DNA from: Pengzhenrongella frigida
GTDB taxonomy: Bacteria > Actinomycetota > Actinomycetes > Actinomycetales > Cellulomonadaceae
Reading direction: 5' to 3'
DNA: 50,366 nucleotides
Assembly (NCBI RefSeq): GCF_004168625.1
Contig: NZ_SDWW01000035.1
Location: forward strand, 1-50,366
Part shown: positions 34,195 to 48,380 of the stretch, piece by piece
How the letters are laid out: each line of letters begins with the position of its first letter
Position numbering within the stretch: the stretch's first letter is position 1
Made by a program: the position numbers and the translations under genes
Notes under the pieces: model-generated
Seen by the model: the letters and a program-made list of their open reading frames with translations, nothing else
Database searches by the model: none
What the model was told of the DNA's origin: nothing

Positions 34195-34845
34195 ATGAGC
34201 ACCGCCGCCCAGCCCTATCCCCCTGCCCTCGGAGTCATCGAGCCTGAGGACGCAAAAGACACAATGCGGACGGCAATACGCTCAGCCCGGCAGCAGCGTT
34301 CCGAACGTCGCCGCCAGGAGGCCGCGCAGGCGTTCGCCGATGTGCTCGAGACGATGCCCGAGCTGCGCGCGGCCCGTTGCGTCGCCGCCTACGTCGCTCG
34401 ACCCTTCGAGCCGAGCACCGGTCCCCTGCTCGAGCTGCTCGCCGATCGCGGGGTCCGGGTCCTGCTCCCGGTGCTCGGCACCGGGCTGCAACGCGACTGG
34501 GCCGCGTACAACGGCGCCGACGACCTGCAGCAGCGGGCACCGGGCCGCCCGCGCGAACCCGGTACGGCGGGGCTCGGTGCCGAGGCGCTGCAGTCGGCCG
34601 ACGTGATCGTCGCGCCCGCGCTCGCCGTCGACACCTCCGGCGCCCGCCTCGGGCAGGGCGGTGGGTGGTACGACCGCGCCCTGGAGCACGCGCGCCCCGG
34701 GACCCCGGTGATCGCGATGGTGTTCGCCGAAGAGGTCTACGACGCGGGCACGCGCCCGCTGCCGCGCCAGCCGCACGACCGGTTGGTCGACGCGGTCGCC
34801 ACGCCCGAGGGCTGGCGCTGGCTCAGGCTCCAGACCGCAGAGTGA
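34195..34845 (+). CDS. 5-formyltetrahydrofolate cyclo-ligase
   Basis: A 216-residue ATP-dependent enzyme converting 5-formyl-THF to 5,10-methenyl-THF. Seen: the basic N-terminal helix KDTMRTAIRSARQQ, YVARPFEPSTGPLLELL, RVLLPVLG, DVIVAPALAVDTSGARLGQGGGWYDRAL (the folate/ATP loop GxGGGxYD) and the closing PHDRLVDAVATPEG. The frame continues upstream opposite galU, but ATG at 34195 fits the family. Its 3' end overlaps the convergent acylase gene by 23 bp. Confidence 0.93.
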   Translation: MSTAAQPYPPALGVIEPEDAKDTMRTAIRSARQQRSERRRQEAAQAFADVLETMPELRAARCVAAYVARPFEPSTGPLLELLADRGVRVLLPVLGTGLQRDWAAYNGADDLQQRAPGRPREPGTAGLGAEALQSADVIVAPALAVDTSGARLGQGGGWYDRALEHARPGTPVIAMVFAEEVYDAGTRPLPRQPHDRLVDAVATPEGWRWLRLQTAE

Positions 34846-37432
34846 GCCGGTCGGCCGCCGACTCGTCGACGGCCGCGGCGGAGTAGGGCCACGGGTAGGT
34901 CTCGCCCCGGGCCCAGGCCCCGAACTGGTCGCTGTAGTGCGCGCTCGCCGGGTGCCCCGAGGTTCCCGTGAGCGTGACCCATGTCGAGGCGTCAAGATCG
35001 GCGAGGTCCACGACCATCCGCATCGACGGCCCCTTGGTGACCGCGAACGAGTCGGTCGCCGCGTCCCAGCTGGTGGCATTGACGATGGACGACCCGCCCG
35101 CGACGGCGATCGCGTCCGGGTTCACCAGCCGCCGGACGACCGCCGGGACGGTCGGGCCGCCGAGCGCCGCATGCTCGGGCGCGGCGGTGTGCAGCTTGCC
35201 CCAGTTCCAGTCGGACGGGTCCTTGCCGAGCTCGACCGTCAGCTCGCGGCGGGCCGAGGTGAGCGCCTGCGAGAGGATCTCGTCCCGCCCCTCGACGATG
35301 CCGACCGTGGTCCGGTCGTCCCACCACAGGTCGTCGGGCCGCTCGAGCATCCCTCGCACGACCTCGAGCCAGCGGCTGCCGCCGTCGGGCCGGGCACTGT
35401 CGGGCAGGTCGTCCCAGAAGGTGAGCTCGAGCAGGTTCGACCAGACCGACGCGAAGTACGCCGCCGCCGCCGAGTCGGTCGTCGAGTGCCCGTCCCAGCC
35501 GCGCAGCAGGTCCTGCCCGGCCCGGTCGAACGTCGTGGGGACCTTCGCCGAGAGCAGCATCGGGACGAGCATGGTCGCGTACGGGTTGGCGTCGTCGAGC
35601 TGCAGCTGGGACGTCGCCGCGCCGTCGATCGCGTCGCCGCGGGCGATCGAGGCGACCAGCACGTCGCGCACCCGCTGCGAGCGGTAGCCGAAGTCCCAGT
35701 CGCTGGTGAGGAACGGGCCCGCACCGGTGGGGGTCACGGCCTGGTTCGCGGCCACGATGAAGCCCTCCGGCGGGTCGAGCACGGCCGGCATGTCCGCCGC
35801 CTCGACGTAGCCCTGCCAGTCGTAGCGGCTGTCCCAGCCGGGTCGCGGCCAGGTGCCGTTCGAGGGGACCGGCCCGTCGGCGACCGCGGCGCGCACCGGG
35901 ATCTTGCCCGGGGCCTGGTAGCCGATGTGACCGTCGGTCGTCGCGAAGACGATGTTCTGCGAGGGCACCTCGAACAGGGTCGCGGCGGCCGCGATGTCGG
36001 CGGCCGTGCGAGCGAGGTCGATCGCGAAGACCGCGTCGGCCGTGCGGCCCGGGGTGAGCGCGGTCCAGCCCAGCGAGATCTCGTAGACCCCTTGGGGGGC
36101 GCCGTCGGGCAGGGGCGCGACCCGGGCGCTGTTCACCTCGGGCAGCACGCCCGAGATGATCGGTCCGTGCCCGGTCGAACGGACGGTCACCTCGACGTCG
36201 TCGGCGCCGTTGACCTTGATCGTCTCGGTCCGGGTGGTGACGTCGCGGCGCTCGCCCTCGCGCAGGTACTGCTCCCCCGAGGTGCGCTCGAGGAAGAAGT
36301 CGGTGACGTCGGCGCCCAGGTTCGTGATGCCCCAGGCGAGCGCGTCGTTGTGGCCGATGACGACGCCGGGGAAGCCTGCGAACGAGAAGCCGGTGACGTC
36401 GAACGGGCAGCCGTCGTCGACGACGGCGCAGTGCAGCCCCACCTGCGACCAGACCCCGGGGGCGGAGATCGCCAGGTGCGGGTCGTTCGCGAGGATCGGC
36501 AGGCCGGACGCCGTGTGCTCGCCGGCGACCACCCAGGAGTTGGAGCCGACACCCTCACCCTCACCGAGCAGGTGCGGCACGGCGGCGAGCGCATCCTTCG
36601 CGGAGGTGAGCGCATCCTGCAGAGCGTCGGACGCCAGGCCCTGGCCGGACAGGTCACCCGCGGACAGGTCACCGGCCGAGAGGTCGCCCGGGGCGGAATC
36701 GGCCACCGGCGCAGCGGTCGGCGCCGCCGAGGCGAGGATCGGGGCGTTCACCTCCTGCCGGTAGGCGGGGAACAGCTCGTCGACCCGGGCGATGTCCCGC
36801 ACGGAGGCGAAGCTGGTCGCGCGGTCGAGCTCGTCGTCGTAGTTGCCCCGCAGGTCCCATGCCATCGCCTTGAGCCAGGCCAGCGAGTCGATCGGGTCCC
36901 ACGGCTCCGGCTCCGCGACGTCGACCTGGAGCCCGAGCACGGTGTACTCGATCCCGAGCGTGTCGGGGTTGCGGGTCTCGAGGTAGGCGTTGACGCCGTC
37001 GGCGTAGGCCTGGAGGTACTCCCGCGTGCTGGGCAGGAGCAGATCCCACTCCTGCTCGGCGACCCGGCGCCAGCCGAAGGTCCGGATGACCGTGTCTGCC
37101 TCGAGGGCGTCCGCGTTCTCACCGACCAGCTCCGAGATCCGGCCAGCCGTGACGTGGCGGCGGTAGTCCATCTCGAAGAAACGGTCCTGGGCGTGCACGA
37201 ATCCCTGGGCGCGGAAGAGGTCGGCGGACGTCTCGGCGGTGATCTGCGGCACGCCCCGGGCGTCGCGCACGACGTCGACGTCGGCTGTCAGGCCCGGCAG
37301 GTCGAGCGTGCCGCCGACCTGCGGCAGCGGGCGGCGGACCACCACGAGAGCCAGCACGGACGTGGCGATGAGAGCAAGGACCACGACGCCGGCGACGACG
37401 AGGATGAGGCGGACGGCTCGACGGCGGGGCAC
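34823..37432 (-). CDS. Penicillin-acylase-family Ntn hydrolase, membrane anchored
   Basis: An 869-residue self-processing amidase. An N-terminal helix (LILVVAGVVVLALIATSVLALVV) anchors or exports it. The alpha chain runs from about 50 to 285 (QITAETSADLFRAQGFVHAQDRFFEMD is the family start). A linker with SAGDL repeats precedes the N-terminal nucleophile Ser299 in GSNSWVV. The beta chain has LANDPHLAISAPGVW, GFSFAGFPGVVIGHND and GITNLGADVTDFF. Family members cleave beta-lactam side chains, acyl-homoserine lactones or other N-acyl compounds; substrate unknown here. GTG at 37432 is chosen over upstream frames because the helix follows directly. It interrupts an order where ligase and fmdB are neighbours in mycobacteria. 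Confidence 0.9.
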   Translation of the reverse strand: MPRRRAVRLILVVAGVVVLALIATSVLALVVVRRPLPQVGGTLDLPGLTADVDVVRDARGVPQITAETSADLFRAQGFVHAQDRFFEMDYRRHVTAGRISELVGENADALEADTVIRTFGWRRVAEQEWDLLLPSTREYLQAYADGVNAYLETRNPDTLGIEYTVLGLQVDVAEPEPWDPIDSLAWLKAMAWDLRGNYDDELDRATSFASVRDIARVDELFPAYRQEVNAPILASAAPTAAPVADSAPGDLSAGDLSAGDLSGQGLASDALQDALTSAKDALAAVPHLLGEGEGVGSNSWVVAGEHTASGLPILANDPHLAISAPGVWSQVGLHCAVVDDGCPFDVTGFSFAGFPGVVIGHNDALAWGITNLGADVTDFFLERTSGEQYLREGERRDVTTRTETIKVNGADDVEVTVRSTGHGPIISGVLPEVNSARVAPLPDGAPQGVYEISLGWTALTPGRTADAVFAIDLARTAADIAAAATLFEVPSQNIVFATTDGHIGYQAPGKIPVRAAVADGPVPSNGTWPRPGWDSRYDWQGYVEAADMPAVLDPPEGFIVAANQAVTPTGAGPFLTSDWDFGYRSQRVRDVLVASIARGDAIDGAATSQLQLDDANPYATMLVPMLLSAKVPTTFDRAGQDLLRGWDGHSTTDSAAAAYFASVWSNLLELTFWDDLPDSARPDGGSRWLEVVRGMLERPDDLWWDDRTTVGIVEGRDEILSQALTSARRELTVELGKDPSDWNWGKLHTAAPEHAALGGPTVPAVVRRLVNPDAIAVAGGSSIVNATSWDAATDSFAVTKGPSMRMVVDLADLDASTWVTLTGTSGHPASAHYSDQFGAWARGETYPWPYSAAAVDESAADRLTLRSGA

Positions 37433-37539
37433 GCAGCGAGAATAGCCCGTCGGTCGCGGGGCCCGACGGCGTCCTGCGTCGGGGCGGCGCCGGGCCTGCC
37501 CGGGCCCTCGGATCCACCCTGCGCGCAGACGACGTACGA

Positions 37540-37566
37540 TTGGCACTTGAACCAGGAGAGTGCCAG
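37540..37566. promoter_or_regulatory. CIRCE-like HrcA operator upstream of the FmdB gene
   Basis: TTGGCACTT-N9-GAGTGCCAG matches the CIRCE consensus TTAGCACTC-N9-GAGTGCTAA at 14 of 18 arm positions with exact spacing; the arms pair at seven of nine. A TACGAT hexamer (37535-37540) that could be the -10 touches its left edge. It sits 36 bp before the GTG start, the place expected for heat-shock repression by HrcA. Confidence 0.75.
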
Positions 37567-37602
37567 CGGTCGCTGGCGCTGACGGAGCAAGGAGGATCAA
37601 TC

Positions 37603-38025
37603 GTGCCCACCTATGCCTACGCGTGCACCGCGTGCGACCACCGGTTCGAGGCGCAGCAGTCCTTCACCGATTCTTCGCTGACCGTCTGCCCCGAGTGCGA
37701 GGGGCGCCTGCGCAAGGTGTTCCCGAGCGTCGGAGTGGTGTTCAAGGGCTCCGGGTTCTACCGCAACGACTCGCGGTCGAGCAACCACGGCAAGATCCCG
37801 GCGAGCTCCACCGCCTCGCACGGCGACTCCGGCTCGTCGGGTTCCGGCTCGAGCGACTCCGGCAGTGCGAGCAGCTCGAGCGAGTCGAGCAGCAGCCGGG
37901 CCGCGGCGTCGGCTGCACCCGCGGCGGCCTCGAGCACCGCCTCCTCGGGCGGCAGCACGGGTTCCGGCAGCAAGGGCTCCGGCAGCAAGGTCGCCGCGAG
38001 CTCGGGCGCCACGACGTCCAAGTAG
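37603..38025 (+). CDS. FmdB-family zinc-ribbon protein, Ruc-like
   Basis: A 140-residue protein with an N-terminal zinc ribbon (Cys8, Cys11, Cys29, Cys32 in YACTAC and VCPEC) ending in VVFKGSGFYRND, followed by about 75 residues almost entirely Ser, Gly and Ala, surely disordered. A zinc ribbon plus disordered tail is the layout of M. tuberculosis Rv0991c (Ruc), described as a heat-inducible, redox-regulated chaperone. The CIRCE-like operator and perfect ribosome-binding site AAGGAGG support a stress-induced role. The chaperone function here is inferred from the relative. Confidence 0.88.
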   Translation: MPTYAYACTACDHRFEAQQSFTDSSLTVCPECEGRLRKVFPSVGVVFKGSGFYRNDSRSSNHGKIPASSTASHGDSGSSGSGSSDSGSASSSSESSSSRAAASAAPAAASSTASSGGSTGSGSKGSGSKVAASSGATTSK

Positions 38026-38199
38026 CACCGCCTTCGGGTAGCACCGCCTTCAAGTAGCACCGCCTCGAGGTGGCACCTCCTCCACCTCGGTCGGCGCTCG
38101 GGCGGGCGCCCGACCCGCGGGTCGGCGACCGTCGCGTCCGTGCACAACCCGTTCCCGGCGGTCCTGCCTACCGGTCGACGTCGTCCTACCGTCGCGACC

Positions 38200-38991
38200 A
38201 TGCCCCGCCTCCCTGCCCGTGTGCCGGCCGCCGGATCGATCCGCGTCTCCGGCCGTGTCTACGGCCGTGGCCAGCCCGACAGCGGCCCGCGTGACCGGCA
38301 CCGGACCCCGGGGGTCCGATGGCGCCTGCTCGCCTGGCGGGTGCGCTTCCCGGTCGCGGCGGCCCTGCTCGCGCTGGCAGCGACGCTCGTCATCGCCGAG
38401 CTCCGCCCGGCGCCGGCCGTCACCGTCCCGGTCGCCGTCGCCGGGCGCGAGCTCGCACCCGGGGTGCCCCTGGCGGCCGCCGACCTGCGGGTCGTGCGCA
38501 TGCCGCCCGCACTGGTGCCGAGCGGAGCCCACCCGAGCGTGGACACCGTCGTCGGGCAGCGGCTCGTCGTCGGTGCCCCGGCCGGGCTGCCGATCGTCCA
38601 CGGGCTGCTCGCGGGCGATCGGCTCGCCACCGCGGGGCCGGCCGGGACGGTGGTCGCTCCCGTCCGGCTGGCCGACCCCGCGGTCGCCGCCCTGCTCCGG
38701 CCCGGCGACCGGATCGACCTCCTGGCGGCGGCGGGCACCGCTGATGGGGAGCCAGCCGTGCACCAGCTCGCCACACGCGCCATCGTGCTGGCCGATCCCG
38801 GCTCCGACTCCGCGAGCGCGGGGGCTTCAGCGGGCCAGGACGCGGGGGCGGGTGCGATCGGGGGGCTGCTCGGTGGCGGCGCCGACCCGGGCACCGGGGC
38901 GCTGACGCTGGTGGCGGTGACCCCGGCCGAGGCGGCCGCGCTCGCCGGAGCGGTGGGCTGGGCGAACCTGAGCGCGGTCGTCGTGGAGTGA
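38200..38991 (+). CDS. SAF-domain membrane protein (CpaB/RcpC-like)
   Basis: A 263-residue protein with a basic N-terminus, one membrane helix (FPVAAALLALAATLVIAELRP) and an extracytoplasmic SAF domain (VPVAVAGRELAPGVPLAAADLRVVRMP). A C-terminal RcpC-like part follows (GDRIDLLAAAG, TLVAVTPAEAAALAGAVGWANLSAVVVE) with a low-complexity Ala/Gly insert. CpaB proteins work in Flp/Tad pilus assembly, but no pilus genes are in the window. A SAF protein near mscL and fmdB is common in actinobacteria. ATG at 38200 is preferred; 38140 is an in-frame alternative. Confidence 0.82.
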   Translation: MPRLPARVPAAGSIRVSGRVYGRGQPDSGPRDRHRTPGVRWRLLAWRVRFPVAAALLALAATLVIAELRPAPAVTVPVAVAGRELAPGVPLAAADLRVVRMPPALVPSGAHPSVDTVVGQRLVVGAPAGLPIVHGLLAGDRLATAGPAGTVVAPVRLADPAVAALLRPGDRIDLLAAAGTADGEPAVHQLATRAIVLADPGSDSASAGASAGQDAGAGAIGGLLGGGADPGTGALTLVAVTPAEAAALAGAVGWANLSAVVVE

Positions 38992-39069: not shown

Positions 39070-39483
39070 ATGCGATCGGTCCTTGAGGGGTTCAAGAACT
39101 TCATCATGCGTGGCAACGTGGTCGAGCTGGCGGTCGCCATCGTGATCGGCGCCGCGTTCACCGCGCTGATCAACTCGATCGTCACCGGGATGTTCACGCC
39201 GCTGATCGCCGCGATCCTCGGCAGCGCCGACCTCAGCCAGGCCGGGATGTTCGAGATCAACGGCGCGATCTTCATGCCGGGCCTGGTGCTCGACGGGCTG
39301 ATCAAGTTCCTCGTGATCGCCGCGGCCGTGTACTTCGTGATCGTGCTCCCGCTCAACAAGCTGGCCGAGCGCCGCAACCGGGGTGTCGAGCCCGAGGTCG
39401 CCGCGATCGCCACGGACACGCTGCTCCTGCAGGAGATCCGCGACCTGCTCGCCGCGCAGCAGGGCTCCGGCCCGCGGCACTGA
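39070..39483 (+). CDS. mscL: Large-conductance mechanosensitive channel
   Basis: A 137-residue channel subunit that opens under membrane tension to release solutes on osmotic downshock. Seen: the amphipathic N-terminus GFKNFIMRGNVVELAVAIVIGAAFTALINSIV (TM1 with the Gly/Ala pore-lining pattern), the periplasmic loop, TM2 (FLVIAAAVYFVIVLPLNKL) and the C-terminal helix LLLQEIRDLLA. Length is standard. AAGGGG precedes the ATG. Confidence 0.97.
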   Translation: MRSVLEGFKNFIMRGNVVELAVAIVIGAAFTALINSIVTGMFTPLIAAILGSADLSQAGMFEINGAIFMPGLVLDGLIKFLVIAAAVYFVIVLPLNKLAERRNRGVEPEVAAIATDTLLLQEIRDLLAAQQGSGPRH

Positions 39484-39837: not shown

Positions 39838-42800
39838 CTACGGGAGGATCCGGCGCACCGCGCTGGCGATCGCCGTGTCCACGCGAGCCCCGCGGCGGGC
39901 GATGCCCAGCTCGGAGCGCAGCGCGGCCGCGAGCTGCAGATGGTCACGCACCACCGAGTCGGACACGATCCAGCTCAGCAGGTCGTCCAGCTCGTCGTCG
40001 CCGTAGGCGCTGATCGGCAGCCCGGGCACGACCGGCGGGCGCGGCCGGCTGGGGAACGGCAGGGTCGGCTGCTCGTGGCCGACGGCGTGCGCACGCTCTG
40101 CCTCGGGATGCTCCACCGGTCCCGCCGTGGGCAGGTTGACCGGTTGCGCGGCGCGGGCGCGGGCCGCGACCCGGGCGAGCACGGTGCGCGCGATCGCGTC
40201 CGCCTCCCCCTGCGGGTCGAGGAACGCGGCCGCAGACCAGACCTGCGCCACCGACCAGCCGAGCCGCTCCAGTCGCCGGGCGCGCTGACGGTCGCGCACC
40301 CGCACGCTGGGCTCGGCGACGTAGTCGGCGTCGTCGGTCAGCACCGCGACGATGAGCTCACCGGGCAGGTCGGGGTGGCCGACCGCCAACGGGATCCGCG
40401 ACCCGCCGGCCACGCCGTAGTCGATCTCCACGAGCAGGCCCGCGCGCCACAGCCGTTCGGCCAGGTCCATCACGAGGCGGTCCGGGCTGGTCGGGTCCGG
40501 GGCACGCAGTGCGATCCCGGTCTCGTCCCGGCCCCGCGCGGAGGCGAAGGCGAGCACGTCCGCGAGCAGGCGGGCGCCGGGGGCGCGCAGCCGCTCGGGG
40601 TCCAGCTCCGGCGCACCGAAGCAAGACACCACCACGAGCCGGTGCCGGGTCGCCCCGAGCGCGTCGAGCAGCAGGGCCGCGCCGCCCGGTCCGCTCAACG
40701 GGCCGAATCCGTGCAGCACCCGACCGTGGGGAGTCTTGCCGAACCCGATCGAGAAGATGATCGCCTCGCGCCGCAGCCCGGCCACGCCCGCGAGGTCGGC
40801 GACCACGAACGGCTCGGTCCGCCGGGAATCGAAGAACGTCGCGAGCGACGGGTTGTCGCGGACCTCGGCGAGCACCGCCTCGCGCACCCGGTTGGCATGG
40901 GTCGGCGAGGACGTGATGACCGCGAGGGACTCCTCGGGGCGGGTCAGGGCGTGGGTGATGGCGAGCTCGACGACGTGCTCGACCTCCGCCCGGGTGCTGT
41001 CCACCGCACCCGTCTCCGAGTCGGGCATCCCCGAACCATCGACCAGGTCGAGCCGGACGAGCGGTGCCGCCGCCGGCAGCGGGGTCGCCTCGAGCACGCC
41101 CGCGTAGCCGTGCTCGGCGAGGAACGCGGTCAGGTACGGGTCGCGGCGGGTGGAGTCGGCCCGCAGCGCGACCTCGGGGAGCACGGCGGCCAACTCGCGC
41201 ACCGCGGTACCGGACGCGCACCGCGCATCGCCGACGACGACGACCTGGCGACCGCGCACGAGCGCCGCCAGGGCGACCTCGAGCGGCAGGTGCTGGACGG
41301 CGTCGAGCACGACGAGGTCGACGGTGCGGGTCGCGGGCAGCAGCTGCGGCACGAGCATCGGCGACGCCGTGAGCACCGGGCGCAGCCGCCGGACGAGGTC
41401 CGGGTAGCGCTCGATGGTCTGGCGCAGGCTGGTCAGTCGCTCCTCGACCAGCTCGGCGAACAGCGACTCGGCCTGCTCGCGGTGGGTGTGCAGGGTGGTG
41501 GAGATGTGGCCGACGACGGCGGAGCGCACCGGCGCCGAGAGGCTGGCGACCTGCTCGAGGTCGAGGCGGCGGAACTCCGCGGCGAGCGCCGACAGCGCCG
41601 CGCCGTCGTACCCGGCGAGGGCCGGGTCCGCGCGCAGCAGCTCGTCGAAGACGGTGCTCCACCACGCCAGGTCGAGCTCGGCGCCGACCAGCTCGGAGCC
41701 CATCCGCCGGCGGGCGAGGTCGTCGAGCAGCGGGTCCAGGCCGGCCGCACGCAACGTGCGCACGAGTGCGGTGCGCTCGGGCAGCACCTCGAGTGCGGAC
41801 CGGTCGGCGAGCAGCCGCCGCAGCCGGTCGGTGAGCTCGGGGAGCGGCGCGTTCGCGAGCCCGCCGCCGCCCGGCGTGGTCGCCAGGGCGGCCTCGAGGC
41901 TGGCGAGGTCGTCCGCCACGAGCCGGTACTCGGCCTCGATGCCGGAGAGCCCCTCGGGCAGCCGTGGCCAGCCGCCGCCGGGGCAGTGCGCCTGCCAGAT
42001 CTCGCGCTGGTGCTGCACCTCGACGAGCGCGGCGTGCAGGTCGGGGACGGGCCGGCCGGGCCGCGCCATGTCCTTGGCCTGCTTGCGCAGGCGCCGGCGG
42101 TGCATCCGGCCCATCGGCTGGTCGTGCTCGACCCGCCAGGCCTTGGTCGCGGTCGCCGCCACGAGGTCCGCGGCCGTGCGCTCGAAGATCATCGGCTGGA
42201 AGACGTCCAGCGCGCCGCGGATCCCGCCGAGCATCCACAGCTGCTCGCCCCAGGCGGCCACCGTCGTCGCGGTCGTCAACCCGGTGGCGACGGCGACCTC
42301 CTCGGCGCGGCCGGCGAGGACCGGCAGGCTCTGGTTCACGAGGCGCTCGATCCGCGCCAGCGCGTCGTCGGCGGCCTCGGTCGTGATCAGGTCGGCGCCG
42401 AACCACGGCGTCTCGGCCGGACGCAGGGAGAAGGCCCCGAGCGCCGCCGCCCGGGCGAGGCCCACGGCGAGGGTCTCGCGCCGCTCGACGTCAAGACCCC
42501 GGGCGACCTCGGGCGTCAGCCGCGCGGTGGTCTGCGGCGCCGGACGCGTCGCGGTGAGCCGGGCGAGGGCCTGCAGGGCGTCATAGGCCGACGCACCCCA
42601 CGGCTCGCGGGCCTGGTGCAGCGCGCTGACGTAGCCGCTGAGCCGGTCGCGCTGGGCGACGAGGTTCCGGCGCAGCGCGTCGACCCGGTGCGGATCGATC
42701 GTGGTCTGCTCCAGCGTCATGGCGCCGAGGAGCCGGCGCGCGACGGCGGCGCGCCAGTCGGCGTCGGGCGCGACGTCGAGCACCAGGTCACCGAGACCCA

Positions 42801-44007
42801 GTTCCCCCAGCCGCGCGGTCAGCGCCGTCGCGCCCCGCCGGTGGCCCGGGACGTACAGCACGCTGCGGCCGTTCGCCGCGGCGTCGGCGACGACGGCGGC
42901 CAACGTCCCGGTCGCGTCGCAGCCGGCGGGGGCGTCGATGAACAGGTGGCTGCCGCCGGCGAGGAGGTCGAGGATGTGGCGCTGGACCGGGTCCAGATCC
43001 CCGACGCCGCGCTCGGTGGCCGGATCGTGGTCGCCGCGCACCCGCTCGGGCAGCGGTCGGGCCAGCAGCTCCAACGCCGCGTCGTCGCCGGCGAGCGCCG
43101 CGATGACGTCGTGCCGCGCCAGCGTGGCCGAGTTCTGGTCCAGGTCCTCGACCAGCACCTGTCCGGGGTGGACGAACGTGCCGACCAGCAGCCGCTCGGT
43201 GAGCGTGAAGTCCTCCAGGACGGCGGAGCCGAGCGCGGCCAGCCGTTCGAGCGCCGGGCGCGGGTTGAACCCCGAGCCCGTGAACGCACCGCGGGCGAGC
43301 GCGACGGGGTCGAGCAGCGCACCGCGCCCGCGCAACGCGCGGGCCAGGATCGGGTTGAGCTCGAGGGACGGTTCGAGGCTCAGCTCGTAGTCGCTCGCGC
43401 CGCTGCCCTTCGCGTGCAGCCCGACCGGTCGCAGCAGCACCGGCGCGCGCACCGTCCGGGGGCTGGCGGTGGTCGCGTCGGCCGGGGTCCCGTCGCCCGG
43501 GGTCTCGTCGGTCGAATCCGGGTGGTCGTGCGCCGGGCGGGTCCGGGTCACGGCGGCGAGGGCGCCGACGTCGTCGGTCGCGACGTCGGGCGAGGTCCGC
43601 TCGGTCCAGGTCGCGACCCCGATCGCCAGGTAGGTGGGGGCGATCCCGTATCGCTGGGCGTACTCCTCCGCGCGCGCTCCGACCGCCCGTGCGCGGCGCT
43701 TGGCGGTCGCGAGCGCCGCACCCTCCCGGACCAGGTTGGACAGGCGGGTGTCGCGACCGGCGAACAGCTGCGCGATGCCCGACGGATGGGCTGCGGACAG
43801 GTCGAGGGCGGCATCGCCCAGCAGCTCGACGTTGGCGAGGGACGAGCCCCCGGCGGCCTCGACGAGCGAGGAGCGCCACGAGGCGACGGCGGCGGCCACG
43901 AGCTCGGCGGTGGTGGGCGGGACGACCGCGACGGGCTGGTTGCCAGCCGGGGCGGCAGGCTCCGGAGCGCCGGACGGTGTGCCTGCGGAGGATGCGGGAA
44001 CAGTCAC
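39838..44007 (-). CDS. DUF4011/superfamily 1 helicase-like protein with degenerate motor and nuclease motifs
   Basis: A 1389-residue protein laid out like DUF4011 helicases: N-terminal DUF4011-like part (about 35-135, LDLSAAHPSGIAQL), motor domain 1 (about 335-920), motor domain 2 (about 950-1130) and a C-terminal DUF559-type nuclease fold (about 1180-1260). The key residues are gone. The P-loop is APAGCDAT at 359-366 instead of GxxGxGK[ST]. Walker B is DAVQ at 902-905 instead of DEAxQ. Motif III reads GDARCAS, and motif VI has lost its arginines (LLDALGATRHR). In the nuclease, the catalytic Asp is Pro1206 and the Glu is Leu1223. The frame is nonetheless intact, suggesting a maintained non-enzymatic role. 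Confidence 0.82.
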   Translation of the reverse strand: MTVPASSAGTPSGAPEPAAPAGNQPVAVVPPTTAELVAAAVASWRSSLVEAAGGSSLANVELLGDAALDLSAAHPSGIAQLFAGRDTRLSNLVREGAALATAKRRARAVGARAEEYAQRYGIAPTYLAIGVATWTERTSPDVATDDVGALAAVTRTRPAHDHPDSTDETPGDGTPADATTASPRTVRAPVLLRPVGLHAKGSGASDYELSLEPSLELNPILARALRGRGALLDPVALARGAFTGSGFNPRPALERLAALGSAVLEDFTLTERLLVGTFVHPGQVLVEDLDQNSATLARHDVIAALAGDDAALELLARPLPERVRGDHDPATERGVGDLDPVQRHILDLLAGGSHLFIDAPAGCDATGTLAAVVADAAANGRSVLYVPGHRRGATALTARLGELGLGDLVLDVAPDADWRAAVARRLLGAMTLEQTTIDPHRVDALRRNLVAQRDRLSGYVSALHQAREPWGASAYDALQALARLTATRPAPQTTARLTPEVARGLDVERRETLAVGLARAAALGAFSLRPAETPWFGADLITTEAADDALARIERLVNQSLPVLAGRAEEVAVATGLTTATTVAAWGEQLWMLGGIRGALDVFQPMIFERTAADLVAATATKAWRVEHDQPMGRMHRRRLRKQAKDMARPGRPVPDLHAALVEVQHQREIWQAHCPGGGWPRLPEGLSGIEAEYRLVADDLASLEAALATTPGGGGLANAPLPELTDRLRRLLADRSALEVLPERTALVRTLRAAGLDPLLDDLARRRMGSELVGAELDLAWWSTVFDELLRADPALAGYDGAALSALAAEFRRLDLEQVASLSAPVRSAVVGHISTTLHTHREQAESLFAELVEERLTSLRQTIERYPDLVRRLRPVLTASPMLVPQLLPATRTVDLVVLDAVQHLPLEVALAALVRGRQVVVVGDARCASGTAVRELAAVLPEVALRADSTRRDPYLTAFLAEHGYAGVLEATPLPAAAPLVRLDLVDGSGMPDSETGAVDSTRAEVEHVVELAITHALTRPEESLAVITSSPTHANRVREAVLAEVRDNPSLATFFDSRRTEPFVVADLAGVAGLRREAIIFSIGFGKTPHGRVLHGFGPLSGPGGAALLLDALGATRHRLVVVSCFGAPELDPERLRAPGARLLADVLAFASARGRDETGIALRAPDPTSPDRLVMDLAERLWRAGLLVEIDYGVAGGSRIPLAVGHPDLPGELIVAVLTDDADYVAEPSVRVRDRQRARRLERLGWSVAQVWSAAAFLDPQGEADAIARTVLARVAARARAAQPVNLPTAGPVEHPEAERAHAVGHEQPTLPFPSRPRPPVVPGLPISAYGDDELDDLLSWIVSDSVVRDHLQLAAALRSELGIARRGARVDTAIASAVRRILP

Positions 44008-44104
44008 CCTGGGAACGCTAACCGGCTATCGCCCCTACCAGTGCATGGCACGCCGTGAGGCCAGAAATCGTTCGGGTCGTCGCGCTCCGCAACACAAAAT
44101 GAAA

Positions 44105-44272: not shown

Positions 44273-45823
44273 TCAGCTCGGTTGGACGAGGACCCACGGG
44301 GAACCGCCCGCCACGGACTCCCCGGGCGTCTGCCCCTGGGACCACCACTTGGCCTCGTACGGCACCAGGTCGAGCTGGACCCTGGTGCCGGCGAGGTAGG
44401 CCGTGGTCGCGTCCCACTGCGGGTAGCTCCCCGCCGGGAGGGTGGGCAGCGGAGCGGGGGTGTCGCCGGGCAGCACCGGGCCGATCAGCGTCCAGGGAGA
44501 GTCCTCGGCGGCCGCCACCGGGGTGTCCGGCGCGAAGCCGCTGGTCCAGTACCGGGCCTGGAAGACCTGGCCGTGCCACACGGTCTTGGTCCCCGCCGGG
44601 TAGGTGCCCAACGCGTCCCAGATCGGGAAGGGGCTGTGTGCCGGGTCGTCGACGACGGCCGTCACTGTCGGCGTCGCCGCCTCGTCGTCCTCCGACGCAG
44701 AGGGCGACGGGGCCGGCGAGAACGGGGCGGCGGTCAGGTCGGCCGAGAGCACGACGGCGAACCGCTGCGCCCCCTGGTCGACCCCGCTGCACGACGTCTG
44801 CACGACCGACAGCACCGACGGCAGCGGCGGGCCGCAGGTGGCGTCCCGGTTGAGCGACCACATGGACAGCGCGCCCACGCCGTTGGTGCGGGCGAACTCG
44901 TTGAGCACGCCGGCGTCGGCGAGCGTGAACCGCTCCGAGATGACGTCGTTCTGGCCGATCATCGGGGTGATGCCGACCTTGCCCCAGGCGTCGCCGATGC
45001 TCAGGGCCTGGCCGGCCCGCGCGAAGGCGGCGCGCACCTGGGTGTGCAGCGCGGTCGCAGACCGGACGACGACGTCGGAGTAGGGCTCGCCCGGCGTCGT
45101 GCCGGAGTTGAAGTCCATGGTCATGCCGTTCACGCCCGCGAGCTCGACGCCCGCGGAGAGCATCCCGGCCACGACCGCCTCGCCGGGGCCGGTGAGCCCG
45201 GTCGGCGCCACCGGCAGCGTCAGCCAGACGGCCAGGCTGCGGCCGTCGTCGGCCGCCCGGTCCTGGACGTCCTTGATCGCGACGGCTCGCCGCTCCGCTC
45301 CCGCGGTGTCGTCGAGCGCGGCGCCCTCGATGTCCAGGTCGATGCTGGTGAGCTCGTACCGGTCCACGACCGCCTCGTAGGCGCGGCTGAGCGCCGTCGG
45401 GCTGGTGCACCTGATGGCGAGCTCGTCGCCGCGCTGCCCGCCGAACGAGACCCGGGCGTCGCCCCCGGTGAGCCGCAGCTGCGACATCCGGCGGTCCAGC
45501 TCGAGCTCGGAGGCGGCCGCGTCGAGGGTGTACACCCCGCCCCACATGGGGGTGCAGTCGTCGTCGGCCCCGGCCGTGACGAAGGACAGGATGACGTTCG
45601 ACTGGGCAGGCCCGGCCGGGGTCTCGAACGGGTAGGCGGGCGTCACCGTCACGTCCACGTAGGCGGCGAAGACCGACGGTCCGGGCGTCGCGGGAGTCGT
45701 GACGACGGCCGAGACGGCCCGGACTCCCGTCCAGCCGATCGCGGTGGCGCAGAGCAGGACGACGCCGACCCGGAGGAAGGAGACCCGCATCCGAGGACGC
45801 GGTGCAGCGGTGGTCAAGGTCAT
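44273..45823 (-). CDS. Exported GH18 protein with two C-terminal CBM5/12-like modules
   Basis: A 516-residue type-II membrane or secreted protein: signal/anchor helix at about 13-40, a GH18 barrel (about 50-350) and two carbohydrate-binding modules (about 398-448 and 468-515: YPQWDATTAYLAGTRVQ, AKWWSQGQTPG) joined by Pro/Ser linkers. The chitinase active-site motif DLDIE is intact with Glu166 as acid. GH18 enzymes cut beta-1,4-GlcNAc linkages with substrate assistance. AGAGG precedes ATG 45823; an earlier in-frame ATG at 45943 would overlap the upstream gene. It lies 85 bp after the GT2 synthase, so it probably trims or releases the polymer that enzyme makes. Confidence 0.87.
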   Translation of the reverse strand: MTLTTAAPRPRMRVSFLRVGVVLLCATAIGWTGVRAVSAVVTTPATPGPSVFAAYVDVTVTPAYPFETPAGPAQSNVILSFVTAGADDDCTPMWGGVYTLDAAASELELDRRMSQLRLTGGDARVSFGGQRGDELAIRCTSPTALSRAYEAVVDRYELTSIDLDIEGAALDDTAGAERRAVAIKDVQDRAADDGRSLAVWLTLPVAPTGLTGPGEAVVAGMLSAGVELAGVNGMTMDFNSGTTPGEPYSDVVVRSATALHTQVRAAFARAGQALSIGDAWGKVGITPMIGQNDVISERFTLADAGVLNEFARTNGVGALSMWSLNRDATCGPPLPSVLSVVQTSCSGVDQGAQRFAVVLSADLTAAPFSPAPSPSASEDDEAATPTVTAVVDDPAHSPFPIWDALGTYPAGTKTVWHGQVFQARYWTSGFAPDTPVAAAEDSPWTLIGPVLPGDTPAPLPTLPAGSYPQWDATTAYLAGTRVQLDLVPYEAKWWSQGQTPGESVAGGSPWVLVQPS

Positions 45824-45908
45824 CGGGAGCCTCTTGCGGTCGAGGTGCGTGGTAGCAGGCAGGGGGTCGCGGGGCGGCCGACGCCGGGGCGGGCCGCCGG
45901 GGTGCAGC

Positions 45909-48380
45909 TCATGAGGTCCGCTGGTGTGCGCGGGTGTCACCACGGCGTGGTGCCGGGGCGGCGGTGACCGCGATGCTCGACGGCCCCTGGGTGGCGCCGG
46001 TCTGGTCGGGGCCGAAGTAGAGGACCGACTCCCAGTCGGGATCGGCCGTCGCGACCACGACCGGCTTGCGCGGCCCGCGCACGCGGGCCGGGACCCGCAC
46101 CCAGGCCACGGTCCCGAGGATCACGTCCACGATCGAGTTGCGCACCCCGATGAAGGCGACGATGGCGTAGCAGGTGAGCGTGCCGTTGAACGCGGCGAAG
46201 GCGGCGTTGGTCCAGTTCTCCGTGCGGATGTCGTTCGCGAGCGTGTAGAAGCAGTACGCGGCGATGAGGTACGCGGCCAGCACGTACAGCGCGGGCGCCG
46301 ACGTGCGGTTCTTGACCTTCGGGGTGCGCGCGAACGCGATCTTGGACTTGGCCGCGGCCTGCTGCAACGACTTCAGGGTGCCGGCAAGGTTGACCGGCAG
46401 CAGGATCAGGTTGAACGCGTACACCCGCAGGATGTCCGACCGCTTGTAGCCGAGCCGGCGGAAGTCCGAGGCCATCGCGATGAAGTACGGCAGGGCCGCC
46501 GCCAGGATGATCGGGCTGAGCAGCTGGTCGTCGAACGGGAACACGAGCAGGAACACCAGCCCGACGCTCGCCCAGCAGATCGAGGCCATGTAGTTGAACC
46601 GCAGCGCGACCGCCGCCCGGGGCACGCGGTGCCCGGCCTTGCGCTCACGTCGGACCAGCCGCGCGAACTTCGGCGCGATCAGCAGCCCGCCGTTGGCCCA
46701 CCGGGCGCGCTGCACCACGAGGGAGCCGAAGTCGGGCGGGGTGGCGCTGTAGCTCAGCCGCTCGGGGTAGTTGAACAGGGTCCAGCCGTGTGCGACCAGG
46801 TCGATGCTCGACTCGGTGTCCTCGATGACGGTGCGGTCCTGCACGTACCGGCGGACCTCCTGCCCGGCGACGAACGAGACCTCGACGATGTCGTCCAGCG
46901 CGGGCTTGCGGATCACGGCGTTGGCACCCACCCAGAACGTGGCCCCGAAGTAGGTCATGCCCTGGTGGACGATGTGCTGGATGTCGGTCGTGGCGCCGGC
47001 GATCCGCTCGAGGCGGGTGCTGGCGCCCCGGAACGCGGCGTACGGGGTCTGGATGACCGCGATGCGCTCGTTGCCGGGGAGCTCAAGGTGGTAGACGAGG
47101 CGCAGGCAGTACTCACGCAGCAGCACGCTGTCGGCGTCGAGCGTGAGCAGGTAGTCGCTGTCGGGGATCAGGAACGAGTCGTCGGCCTCGGTGTCCCGCA
47201 GGACGAGCCCCAACCGGGTCTCGACCTGGCGGACCCGGCGGCCCATGAGCCCGATGTAGGCGTTGAGGTTCATGGCCTTGTTCGCGTCGTGCGGCAGGTG
47301 CGCGTACGCCTTGCGCTCGAAGGACGAGAGGTCCGCGTCGAAGGTCCACACCAGCCGGCGCCACAGCTGGCTCAACCGCTCGGCGGGCACCGCGGCGCGC
47401 TGGTCGAGCGCGGCGAACAGCGCCCGGGCCGTGATCTCGAGGTCGCCCGCGAGCCCACCGAGGACCTCGTCGGCCACGAAGTCGTCGGAGTTGGACGTGC
47501 GCGGACTGGCGGCCGCCTGGTCACGGAGCCACCGGCCCGCCCAGGCGAAGTCGATCGCGAGGGCGCGGATCTGGTCCGTCGTGCTCGCGCCACCGGCCGG
47601 CGCCAGCGCCTCGTGCAGGGCCAGGGAGGCGCTGAACCGTTCGAACGGTCCCCGCAGCAGGGCGTTGATCTCGCCCGGGAGCGCCCGGCAGCCGGCCAGG
47701 CTCGCGATCGCGTCCGGGTCGGTCGGCGTCGGCGGGTCGTCCAGCAGCAGCACGATCCGCATGCCGGGGTACTCCTGGAGGGCGGCCGAGAGCAGGGTCG
47801 ACCGCACGACGGCCGGGTCCTCGCAGTAGGACGGGACCAGCACGGTCAGTGAGGGGCGCGAGTTCGTCATGAAGGCATCGATCTCGGCGCGGGGCACGCG
47901 GACGTGCCCCCGGGACCGGTACAGGGCACCCTGCCGCGCGAGCAGGTACATGAACGACGAGAAGGTGAGCAGGCTCATCACGACGACGTAGGCGATCGTC
48001 TGCGCGAGGAACCGGCTGTCGTGCAGCCCGTTGTCGATGAACTGCGAGATCACCGTCCGGGCGAGGTACACCACCCAGGCCACCGCGGTCGCGGTCAGGG
48101 CGAATCCGCCGAGCCAGGTGGCGGCGTTCCCCGCGGGCTTCTCCATGATGGGCAGGGGCGGCTTGGGGCGCTCCGCACCCCACTGCCGGCGGGGCCGCTT
48201 CGACGACGCGGGCGACGAGGCCTTGCCCAGCGGCGCGCCGGCCTCGACCGCCGTCACGACGAGACCGTCCGGCGACACCTGCTGCGGAATCCCGGCGCTG
48301 ACCCGGTCCGGCGCACGGTCACGCGAGCCGGCGGCACCCGAAAGTGGTGCGTCGGAGCCGTGGGAGTGTTCGACCTTCAC
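45909..48380 (-). CDS. Processive family 2 glycosyltransferase, cellulose/chitin-synthase-like
   Basis: An 823-residue membrane synthase. A disordered basic N-terminus (1-85) precedes two TM helices (about 88-110 and 127-148), a cytosolic GT-A domain and about five C-terminal helices. The catalytic series is complete: Asp214-Asp215 (LLLDDPP), DAD 415-417 (TLDADS), Glu520-Asp521 (VIEDTES) and QRARW 557-561, the mark of processive enzymes. Unusually, about 200 residues separate the first Asp motif from DAD because of a mostly helical insert. Polymer identity (glucan, chitin-like or poly-GlcNAc) is open. No PilZ domain is seen. The start is GTG after AGGGG, divergent from the DUF2804 gene. Confidence 0.88.
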   Translation of the reverse strand: MKVEHSHGSDAPLSGAAGSRDRAPDRVSAGIPQQVSPDGLVVTAVEAGAPLGKASSPASSKRPRRQWGAERPKPPLPIMEKPAGNAATWLGGFALTATAVAWVVYLARTVISQFIDNGLHDSRFLAQTIAYVVVMSLLTFSSFMYLLARQGALYRSRGHVRVPRAEIDAFMTNSRPSLTVLVPSYCEDPAVVRSTLLSAALQEYPGMRIVLLLDDPPTPTDPDAIASLAGCRALPGEINALLRGPFERFSASLALHEALAPAGGASTTDQIRALAIDFAWAGRWLRDQAAASPRTSNSDDFVADEVLGGLAGDLEITARALFAALDQRAAVPAERLSQLWRRLVWTFDADLSSFERKAYAHLPHDANKAMNLNAYIGLMGRRVRQVETRLGLVLRDTEADDSFLIPDSDYLLTLDADSVLLREYCLRLVYHLELPGNERIAVIQTPYAAFRGASTRLERIAGATTDIQHIVHQGMTYFGATFWVGANAVIRKPALDDIVEVSFVAGQEVRRYVQDRTVIEDTESSIDLVAHGWTLFNYPERLSYSATPPDFGSLVVQRARWANGGLLIAPKFARLVRRERKAGHRVPRAAVALRFNYMASICWASVGLVFLLVFPFDDQLLSPIILAAALPYFIAMASDFRRLGYKRSDILRVYAFNLILLPVNLAGTLKSLQQAAAKSKIAFARTPKVKNRTSAPALYVLAAYLIAAYCFYTLANDIRTENWTNAAFAAFNGTLTCYAIVAFIGVRNSIVDVILGTVAWVRVPARVRGPRKPVVVATADPDWESVLYFGPDQTGATQGPSSIAVTAAPAPRRGDTRAHQRTS

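Follow-up and report, generated by a model that had tools for sequence, protein, structure and literature searches.

Results

A helicase-like gene with altered catalytic motifs

The window analysed here is positions 1 to 50,366 of contig NZ_SDWW01000035.1 of Pengzhenrongella frigida, and this study concerns a large helicase-like gene at 39838..44007 on its reverse strand, on which all features of the gene given below also lie. The open reading frame starts with GTG and encodes a putative pseudo-helicase/pseudo-nuclease of 1389 residues; at an E-value of 0.001 it was present as a single copy, and no second copy was found in its own genome. The opposite strand carries the shadow frame of this GC-rich gene, open for 1372 codons (39940-44058, forward strand). 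Since this frame is open as well and the gene has a G+C content of 76%, an open frame of 4.2 kb is weak evidence of coding. The original prediction had argued from the frame length that selection appears to hold the gene; that argument carries little weight, although purifying selection itself was confirmed by the ratio of nonsynonymous to synonymous substitution rates (dN/dS, see below). The predicted coding status rests on homology, on the G+C content by codon position (0.80/0.54/0.95) and on dN/dS well below 1.

Among Pfam domains, only the MTES_1575 restriction endonuclease (REase)-fold domain scored above its cut-off in the window protein (PF18741, residues 1182-1273, 40189..40464; 48.2 bits, cut-off 38.2). 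An N-terminal DUF4011-like region (residues 25-225, 43333..43935) was recognised below the threshold (PF13195, 17.5 bits, cut-off 22.2), and no AAA match was seen. In the intact orthologues L083 and L073, AAA_11, AAA_12, DUF4011 (29.0 and 29.3 bits, respectively) and MTES_1575 were all above the Pfam cut-offs. The solved structures nearest to L083 by sequence were SMUBP-2, UPF1 and DNA2, which are UPF1-like superfamily 1 (SF1) helicases; when the window protein was used as the query, the PDB sequence search gave two matches only, with E-values of 0.29 and 0.34, which were taken as chance. Judged by orthology, in the same tree and at the same locus, the window protein is descended from a UPF1-like SF1 helicase that bore an MTES_1575 nuclease at its C-terminus, and the descent from a DUF4011-type helicase-nuclease proposed earlier is supported by the domains of these orthologues. 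Two further regions were distinguished: a large insert between motifs I and II (residues 441-880, 41368..42687), in which Trp535, Ala618, Arg637, Leu661 and Arg767 are strongly retained, and a C-terminal tail (residues 1325-1388, 39844..40035) conserved among close relatives, where separate matches in four genomes of the same genus covered residues 1279-1388, 1278-1388, 1258-1388 and 1311-1388.

The helicase motifs were compared with those of the intact orthologues. At the P-loop these read GPPGTGKSQT and the window protein APAGCDATGT (remnant APAGCDAT, residues 359-366, 42910..42933), with Ala365 in place of the catalytic Lys. In the motif Ia remnant, GRSVLYVPGHRR (residues 380-396, 42820..42870), Lys389 of the intact copies is replaced. 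Walker B is FDEASQ in the orthologues and LDAVQH here (remnant DAVQHLP, residues 902-908, 41284..41304), with Ala903 in place of Glu; motif III is GDERQLPP in the orthologues and GDARCAS here (residues 926-932, 41212..41232), with Cys at the Gln position. From motif IV (residues 949-957, 41137..41163) the intact WHYRS, with His951 and Ser954, has gone. Motif V, placed by alignment to the intact orthologues, has changed from QGDERDAI to VAGLRREAI (remnant GVAGLRREA, residues 1074-1082, 40762..40788), and motif VI from NVAITRAR to LDALGATR (remnant LDALGATRHR, residues 1114-1123, 40639..40668), with Ala at the Arg finger. The reading frame was thus as originally described, and each of the losses claimed in the P-loop, Walker B and motifs III, V and VI was borne out. 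The protein has no P-loop Lys, Walker B Glu, motif III Gln or Arg finger, by which an active UPF1-like SF1 helicase would be recognised. No alternative set of Lys residues rebuilding the ATPase site was found: the pattern GxxGxGK[ST] was absent throughout the protein, which contains six Lys in total, none of them near the P-loop in sequence.

In the nuclease domain, Pro1206 stands at the Asp position and Leu1223 at the Glu position, and Asp1225 is retained. The Asp was kept in all nine readable paralogues with an intact ATPase, and in four of the nine the Glu position was Leu or Met, so Leu1223 alone does not prove a dead nuclease. Both substitutions on which the claim of an eroded nuclease had been based are present, but Pro1206 is the stronger mark, and the case for a lost nuclease activity rests mainly on it. 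In the four paralogues in question (L210, L211, L217 and L218) the ATPase is intact and the Asp is kept; perhaps the Glu is not needed, or these nucleases too have been altered.

Distribution of the gene and of its catalytic residues

Matches to the window protein were found in 119 of the 121 family genomes sampled, including all 113 good ones, and no internal stop was seen in any family match among the matches listed. In the order sample, which we infer to represent GTDB Actinomycetales, 146 of 149 genomes matched (141 of the 143 good ones), where a match is not proven orthology and a few matches were weak. The class sample gave matches in 28 of 148 genomes, 10 of these from the order. Members by name include Cellulomonas, Sanguibacter, Actinotalea and Actinomyces oris. 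The gene was retained, its P-loop entirely gone, even in a genome of about 0.8 Mb (G170). Fourteen order matches among the matches listed carried stops within the matched span, five of them in a single family (f20); 13 of the 14 yielded one uninterrupted frame of 1192-1342 codons, with the stops outside it. In one of 69 loci (L180) the gene was split over two frames. Of the 183 aligned frames, 180 were at least 1150 codons long, the other three including contig-end fragments.

We called a copy dead when the P-loop Lys was missing. The Lys was kept in 9 of the 183 aligned homologues and missing in 174 (one truncated there); L065 has no residue at this position and some aligned rows are fragments. 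Left out of the alignment were the partial loci L111-L118, rows with an identical core, six duplicate genes and the columns inserted by added rows (mafft, keeplength). Within the order, the Lys was kept in 8 of 171 copies and, counted by genome, in 8 of the 138 read at the motifs (one being truncated there); of the other genomes of the sample, three had no match and eight had weak or fragmentary matches that were not read. In the window's family none of 42 copies kept it, and the substitutions thus recur clade-wide. The Lys-keeping copies came from families f5 (2 of 2 read), f17 (6 of 9) and f45 (1 of 1), with none in all others. Eight of the nine showed no change at the seven scored sites, and L123, the remaining one, differed at two of them, the motif III Gln and the nuclease Glu.

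The P-loop, Walker B, motifs III and IV, the Arg finger and the nuclease were eroded to differing degrees per lineage. Among the 174 dead copies, the Walker B Glu was retained in 2, the motif III Gln in 4, the nuclease Asp in 9, the nuclease Glu in 44, the Arg finger in 69 and the second nuclease Asp (Asp1225) in 169. These counts suggest a stepwise erosion. In L119 and L122, only the Lys had gone out of four scored ATPase residues, and in family f1 the nuclease Asp position was Pro in all 37 readable copies. In L193, L196 and L131, the ATPase is dead and the nuclease Asp, Glu and Asp are all kept, which suggests that some lineages may lose helicase activity before nuclease activity.

As a control, ten paralogues were scored, and all ten kept the P-loop Lys, Walker B Glu, motif III Gln and Arg finger. 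Two of them, L215 and L216 (genomes G114 and G101), are second DUF4011-type helicase-nucleases in genomes of the window's family; their scored ATPase and nuclease residues are intact, and their identity to the window protein is 32-36% in the matched pieces. An active DUF4011 paralogue was considered as a partner and rejected: the present genome has a single copy, and a second copy at its own locus was seen in at least 2 of the 121 family genomes, both intact.

Gene history and selection

In a FastTree phylogeny that left out the motif columns and had long paralogues as its root, the dead copies formed three clades of 160, 11 and 3 tips. A quick IQ-TREE analysis with a mixture model, covering 55 of 193 rows, agreed with it and gave three state changes. 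When all dead rows were forced into one clade, the log-likelihood (lnL) changed by -50.9 (approximately unbiased (AU) test, p 0.037). In an earlier midpoint-rooted tree that included the motif columns, L100 joined the intact L099, which would mean one extra loss. As reconstructed on the rooted trees, the dead copies fall into at least two, most simply three, separate groups. Two other families have intact orthologues at this FmdB-MscL locus, so the ancestral gene was probably an active enzyme.

The dN/dS ratio (Nei-Gojobori) was 0.06-0.29 in 19 chosen dead pairs, versus 0.26 and 0.29 in two intact pairs; the pairs were hand-picked, some sharing a sequence, the stop-to-stop frames include short upstream stretches, and the method is simple for such GC-rich genes. 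These ratios show that purifying selection holds the gene. A fresh pseudogene was rejected on the clade-wide recurrence of the substitutions together with dN/dS.

Additionally, we followed the 162 positions that are invariant in the nine intact copies. In more than 75% of the 174 dead copies 83 of them were kept, and 12 were kept in less than 10%. Of these 12 mostly lost positions, ten fall within catalytic motifs (the P-loop, motifs Ia, IV and VI, Walker B or the nuclease), and the other two are Asn55 and Pro186 (numbering of the window protein). Mean retention in dead copies was highest, among the regions compared, in the insert between motifs I and II (0.80 over 36 invariant positions); it was 73% over the 25 invariant positions of the DUF4011-like region and lowest, 0.52-0.56, in the first RecA half. 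Should there be a partner site, the conserved insert may be a better place to look for it than the ATPase core.

Neighbouring genes and known systems

The convergent neighbour of the gene encodes MscL (39070..39483, forward strand; PF01741), followed by a SAF-domain protein (38140..38991, forward strand) and an FmdB-type zinc ribbon protein (Zn_ribbon_8; 37612..38025, forward strand), the last two recognised by domain match; all three served as syntenic markers. A penicillin-amidase family protein (34823..37600, reverse strand; domain match) is a marker in part of the loci. Synteny was assessed on 49 flanked loci. FmdB, MscL or SAF was present at 39 of them and missing at 10, including that of the f45 copy, L128. 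FmdB and MscL were found beside the gene in all eight Lys-keeping order copies and in three dead f17 copies, as in the window. The orthologue of Actinomyces oris, annotated as a 'DNA helicase' and with dead motifs, lies near mscL and genes for a SAF protein, 5-FCL and glp. Upstream of the gene, a CBM_5_12-ended protein and a family-2 glycosyltransferase are encoded in overlapping frames (44273-48380, reverse strand), perhaps one transcription unit for a polysaccharide.

A mobile origin was also considered and rejected. Of 316 matching plasmid records, mostly from Klebsiella, one covered more than 80% of the query, 14 further rows among the matches listed covered about 35%, and the phage search gave one weak match. 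The sole long match, an Actinomyces oris replicon, shares the chromosomal neighbourhood of the gene. This replicon, L219 (NZ_CP116225.1, strain WVU627, 'plasmid unnamed1'), is 415 kb long and carries the glp, 5-FCL, SAF, mscL and helicase neighbourhood; it is probably a part of the chromosome or a chromid.

The best family matches of the window protein were the DUF4011 helicase-nucleases ProA (NF058533) and PDC-S37, a candidate defence system of PADLOC. The score against the anti-phage ProA model of NCBIfam was 330.4 bits, with a curated cut-off of 1500 and a profile length of 1903 positions; a 1000-residue piece of the intact orthologue L083 reached 629.6 bits. PDC-S37 gave 347 bits (E 6.6e-104), a match without a given cut-off. 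The best-scoring stretch against these two models runs from the second half of the helicase through the nuclease to the C-terminus. Unlike ProA, the window protein lacks the catalytic residues and is encoded by a core gene of the order. It differs similarly from Hhe (NF042953), which by its model name is a DUF4011-type anti-phage protein: the score was 173.2 bits against a curated cut-off of 2000, and the catalytic centres are dead.

A literature search, which was not exhaustive, found no paper on this gene; PDC-S37 was unmentioned and DUF4011 appeared in three papers. Anantharaman et al. (2013, PMC3710099) describe MTES_1575-REase proteins as SF-I helicases fused to a Vsr-like REase. The giant members described there add HEPN, transglutaminase and wHTH domains, whereas the window protein has no Pfam domain beyond MTES_1575 and the weak DUF4011. 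Another paper (PMC10250203) reports that the defence hotspot cDHS1 of Pseudomonas aeruginosa is flanked by a large DUF4011 core gene; ours resembles it, by description and not by sequence, in being a large DUF4011 gene conserved as a core gene of its lineage.

Discussion

Most copies of the gene lack the ATPase residues, and probably also the means of cutting DNA, and yet the gene is kept by selection, so a non-enzymatic job is probable. With a probability of roughly 60%, we propose that a core helicase-nuclease has repeatedly turned into a pseudoenzyme and is kept as a structural or binding protein that would work like RecC or AddB. The starting point would be an ancestral UPF1-like SF1 helicase with an MTES_1575 nuclease at a largely fixed locus beside mscL. 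A second, structural or binding role, for which the protein would rely on its DUF4011 region, its large insert and its fold as a whole, may have been present before catalysis was lost, and this pre-existing role would be what selection keeps now. Most likely, the protein would be a pseudo-helicase scaffold on which DNA or a partner protein is held, in the manner of the inactivated helicase and nuclease domains of RecC and AddB. The wider proposal, that this core protein of the whole order uses the helicase-nuclease fold for a catalysis-independent housekeeping task older than the catalytic loss, seems to us evenly poised. Such an order of events would explain how separate lineages could dispense with their ATPase and nuclease centres and yet the gene itself has persisted nearly everywhere.

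The comparison with RecC and AddB is an analogy and not a claim of membership. According to PMC1185551 and PMC4824097, Chi is thought to be read by the inactivated helicase domains of these two proteins, and an inactivated nuclease-like domain of RecC forms a hoop for single-stranded DNA. The likeness to the window protein lies in a helicase fold that has lost most of its motifs and, for RecC, a nuclease-like domain devoid of catalytic features, retained there for reading Chi or guiding DNA. RecC and AddB differ in being UvrD-like and in forming a known complex with an active partner, whereas the intact orthologue L083 is nearest to SMUBP-2, UPF1 and DNA2. The present genome contains a neighbouring pair of UvrD_C/PDDEXK_1 genes that looks like AdnAB.

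Several points weigh against the proposed pseudoenzyme. The loss of the Lys in the dead set is true by definition, and the loss of the nuclease hangs mainly on its Asp, given the Leu or Met at the Glu position of paralogues. The DNA-contact motifs Ia (Lys389) and IV (His and Ser of WHYRS) are eroded too, which weakens the case for a DNA-binding scaffold in particular; the nucleic-acid binding without hydrolysis suggested in the original prediction is no more than a possibility. No partner was found among the four window genes upstream, which had no matches at the flanked loci; the search did not extend to other candidates. A single loss is rejected by the AU test by a small margin, and the tested group was chosen after the trees had been seen; IQ-TREE flagged an odd composition in 22 rows and one long branch. 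Dead lineages have also evolved faster, with root-to-tip distances from the common node of 1.17-2.72 versus 0.49-1.63 in intact ones; the constraint on them is partly relaxed, but far from gone.

Catalysis through other residues, that is, nucleotide binding without the P-loop Lys or cleavage by Asp1225 and its neighbours, is unlikely. It would account for the near-complete retention of Asp1225 and the partial retention of the nuclease Glu and the Arg finger in dead copies, and it is compatible with the complete nuclease sets of L131, L193 and L196 and with a Glu that may not be essential, being absent in four of nine paralogues. The scarcity of Lys in the window protein, with none near the P-loop, argues against it, as do the almost complete loss of the Walker B Glu (2/174) and the motif III Gln (4/174) and the uniform Pro at the nuclease Asp in f1.

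About as unlikely is an anti-phage decoy or guard, acting as a bait for phage inhibitors of host helicase-nucleases or as a sensor that triggers another effector. The original prediction had spoken of a scaffold or decoy derived from a defence-type helicase, and the distant kinship with ProA (330 bits), Hhe and PDC-S37 is in keeping with that. However, the gene is near-universal in the order sample and has conserved neighbours at 39 of 49 loci, unlike mobile defence genes, it has persisted in the 0.8 Mb genome, the genes flanking it on the MscL side are of housekeeping appearance, and the ProA and Hhe scores are far below the cut-offs. Since intact orthologues occupy the same locus, no recruitment of a defence gene is needed. 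Of the earlier wording, the non-catalytic role is a natural inference from the clade-wide substitutions and purifying selection; neither the decoy nor 'defence-type' finds support in a near-universal core gene with conserved neighbours at most loci examined and such model scores.

We give a little less credence still to the view that the intact copies arrived later and replaced a dead gene in situ in a few families, the ancestor perhaps being dead already. The tests of history are based on gene trees alone, and the AU p of 0.037 is marginal. Against replacement, the outgroup paralogues have an intact ATPase, all eight intact order copies sit at the same locus, five of these eight have the shortest branches of the clade (0.49-0.77; the other three, 1.2-1.63), and L119 and L122 are short of nothing but the Lys among the four scored ATPase residues. 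Slow decay of a functionless pseudogene, to which the faster evolution of dead lineages and the split gene of L180 (1/69 loci) could point, is very improbable in view of dN/dS of 0.06-0.29, matches in 141 of 143 good genomes and frames of at least 1150 codons in 180 of 183.

By the usual rules most members read cannot be ATPases, yet one deposited orthologue, that of Actinomyces oris, bears the label 'DNA helicase' and the window protein has distant matches to anti-phage models. Counts of defence genes made from loose model matches could contain pseudoenzymes. A near-universal gene that has repeatedly lost catalysis and still has intact sister copies offers a natural series on the non-catalytic work of a helicase-nuclease, in hosts that span organisms as unlike as Cellulomonas and oral actinomycetes.

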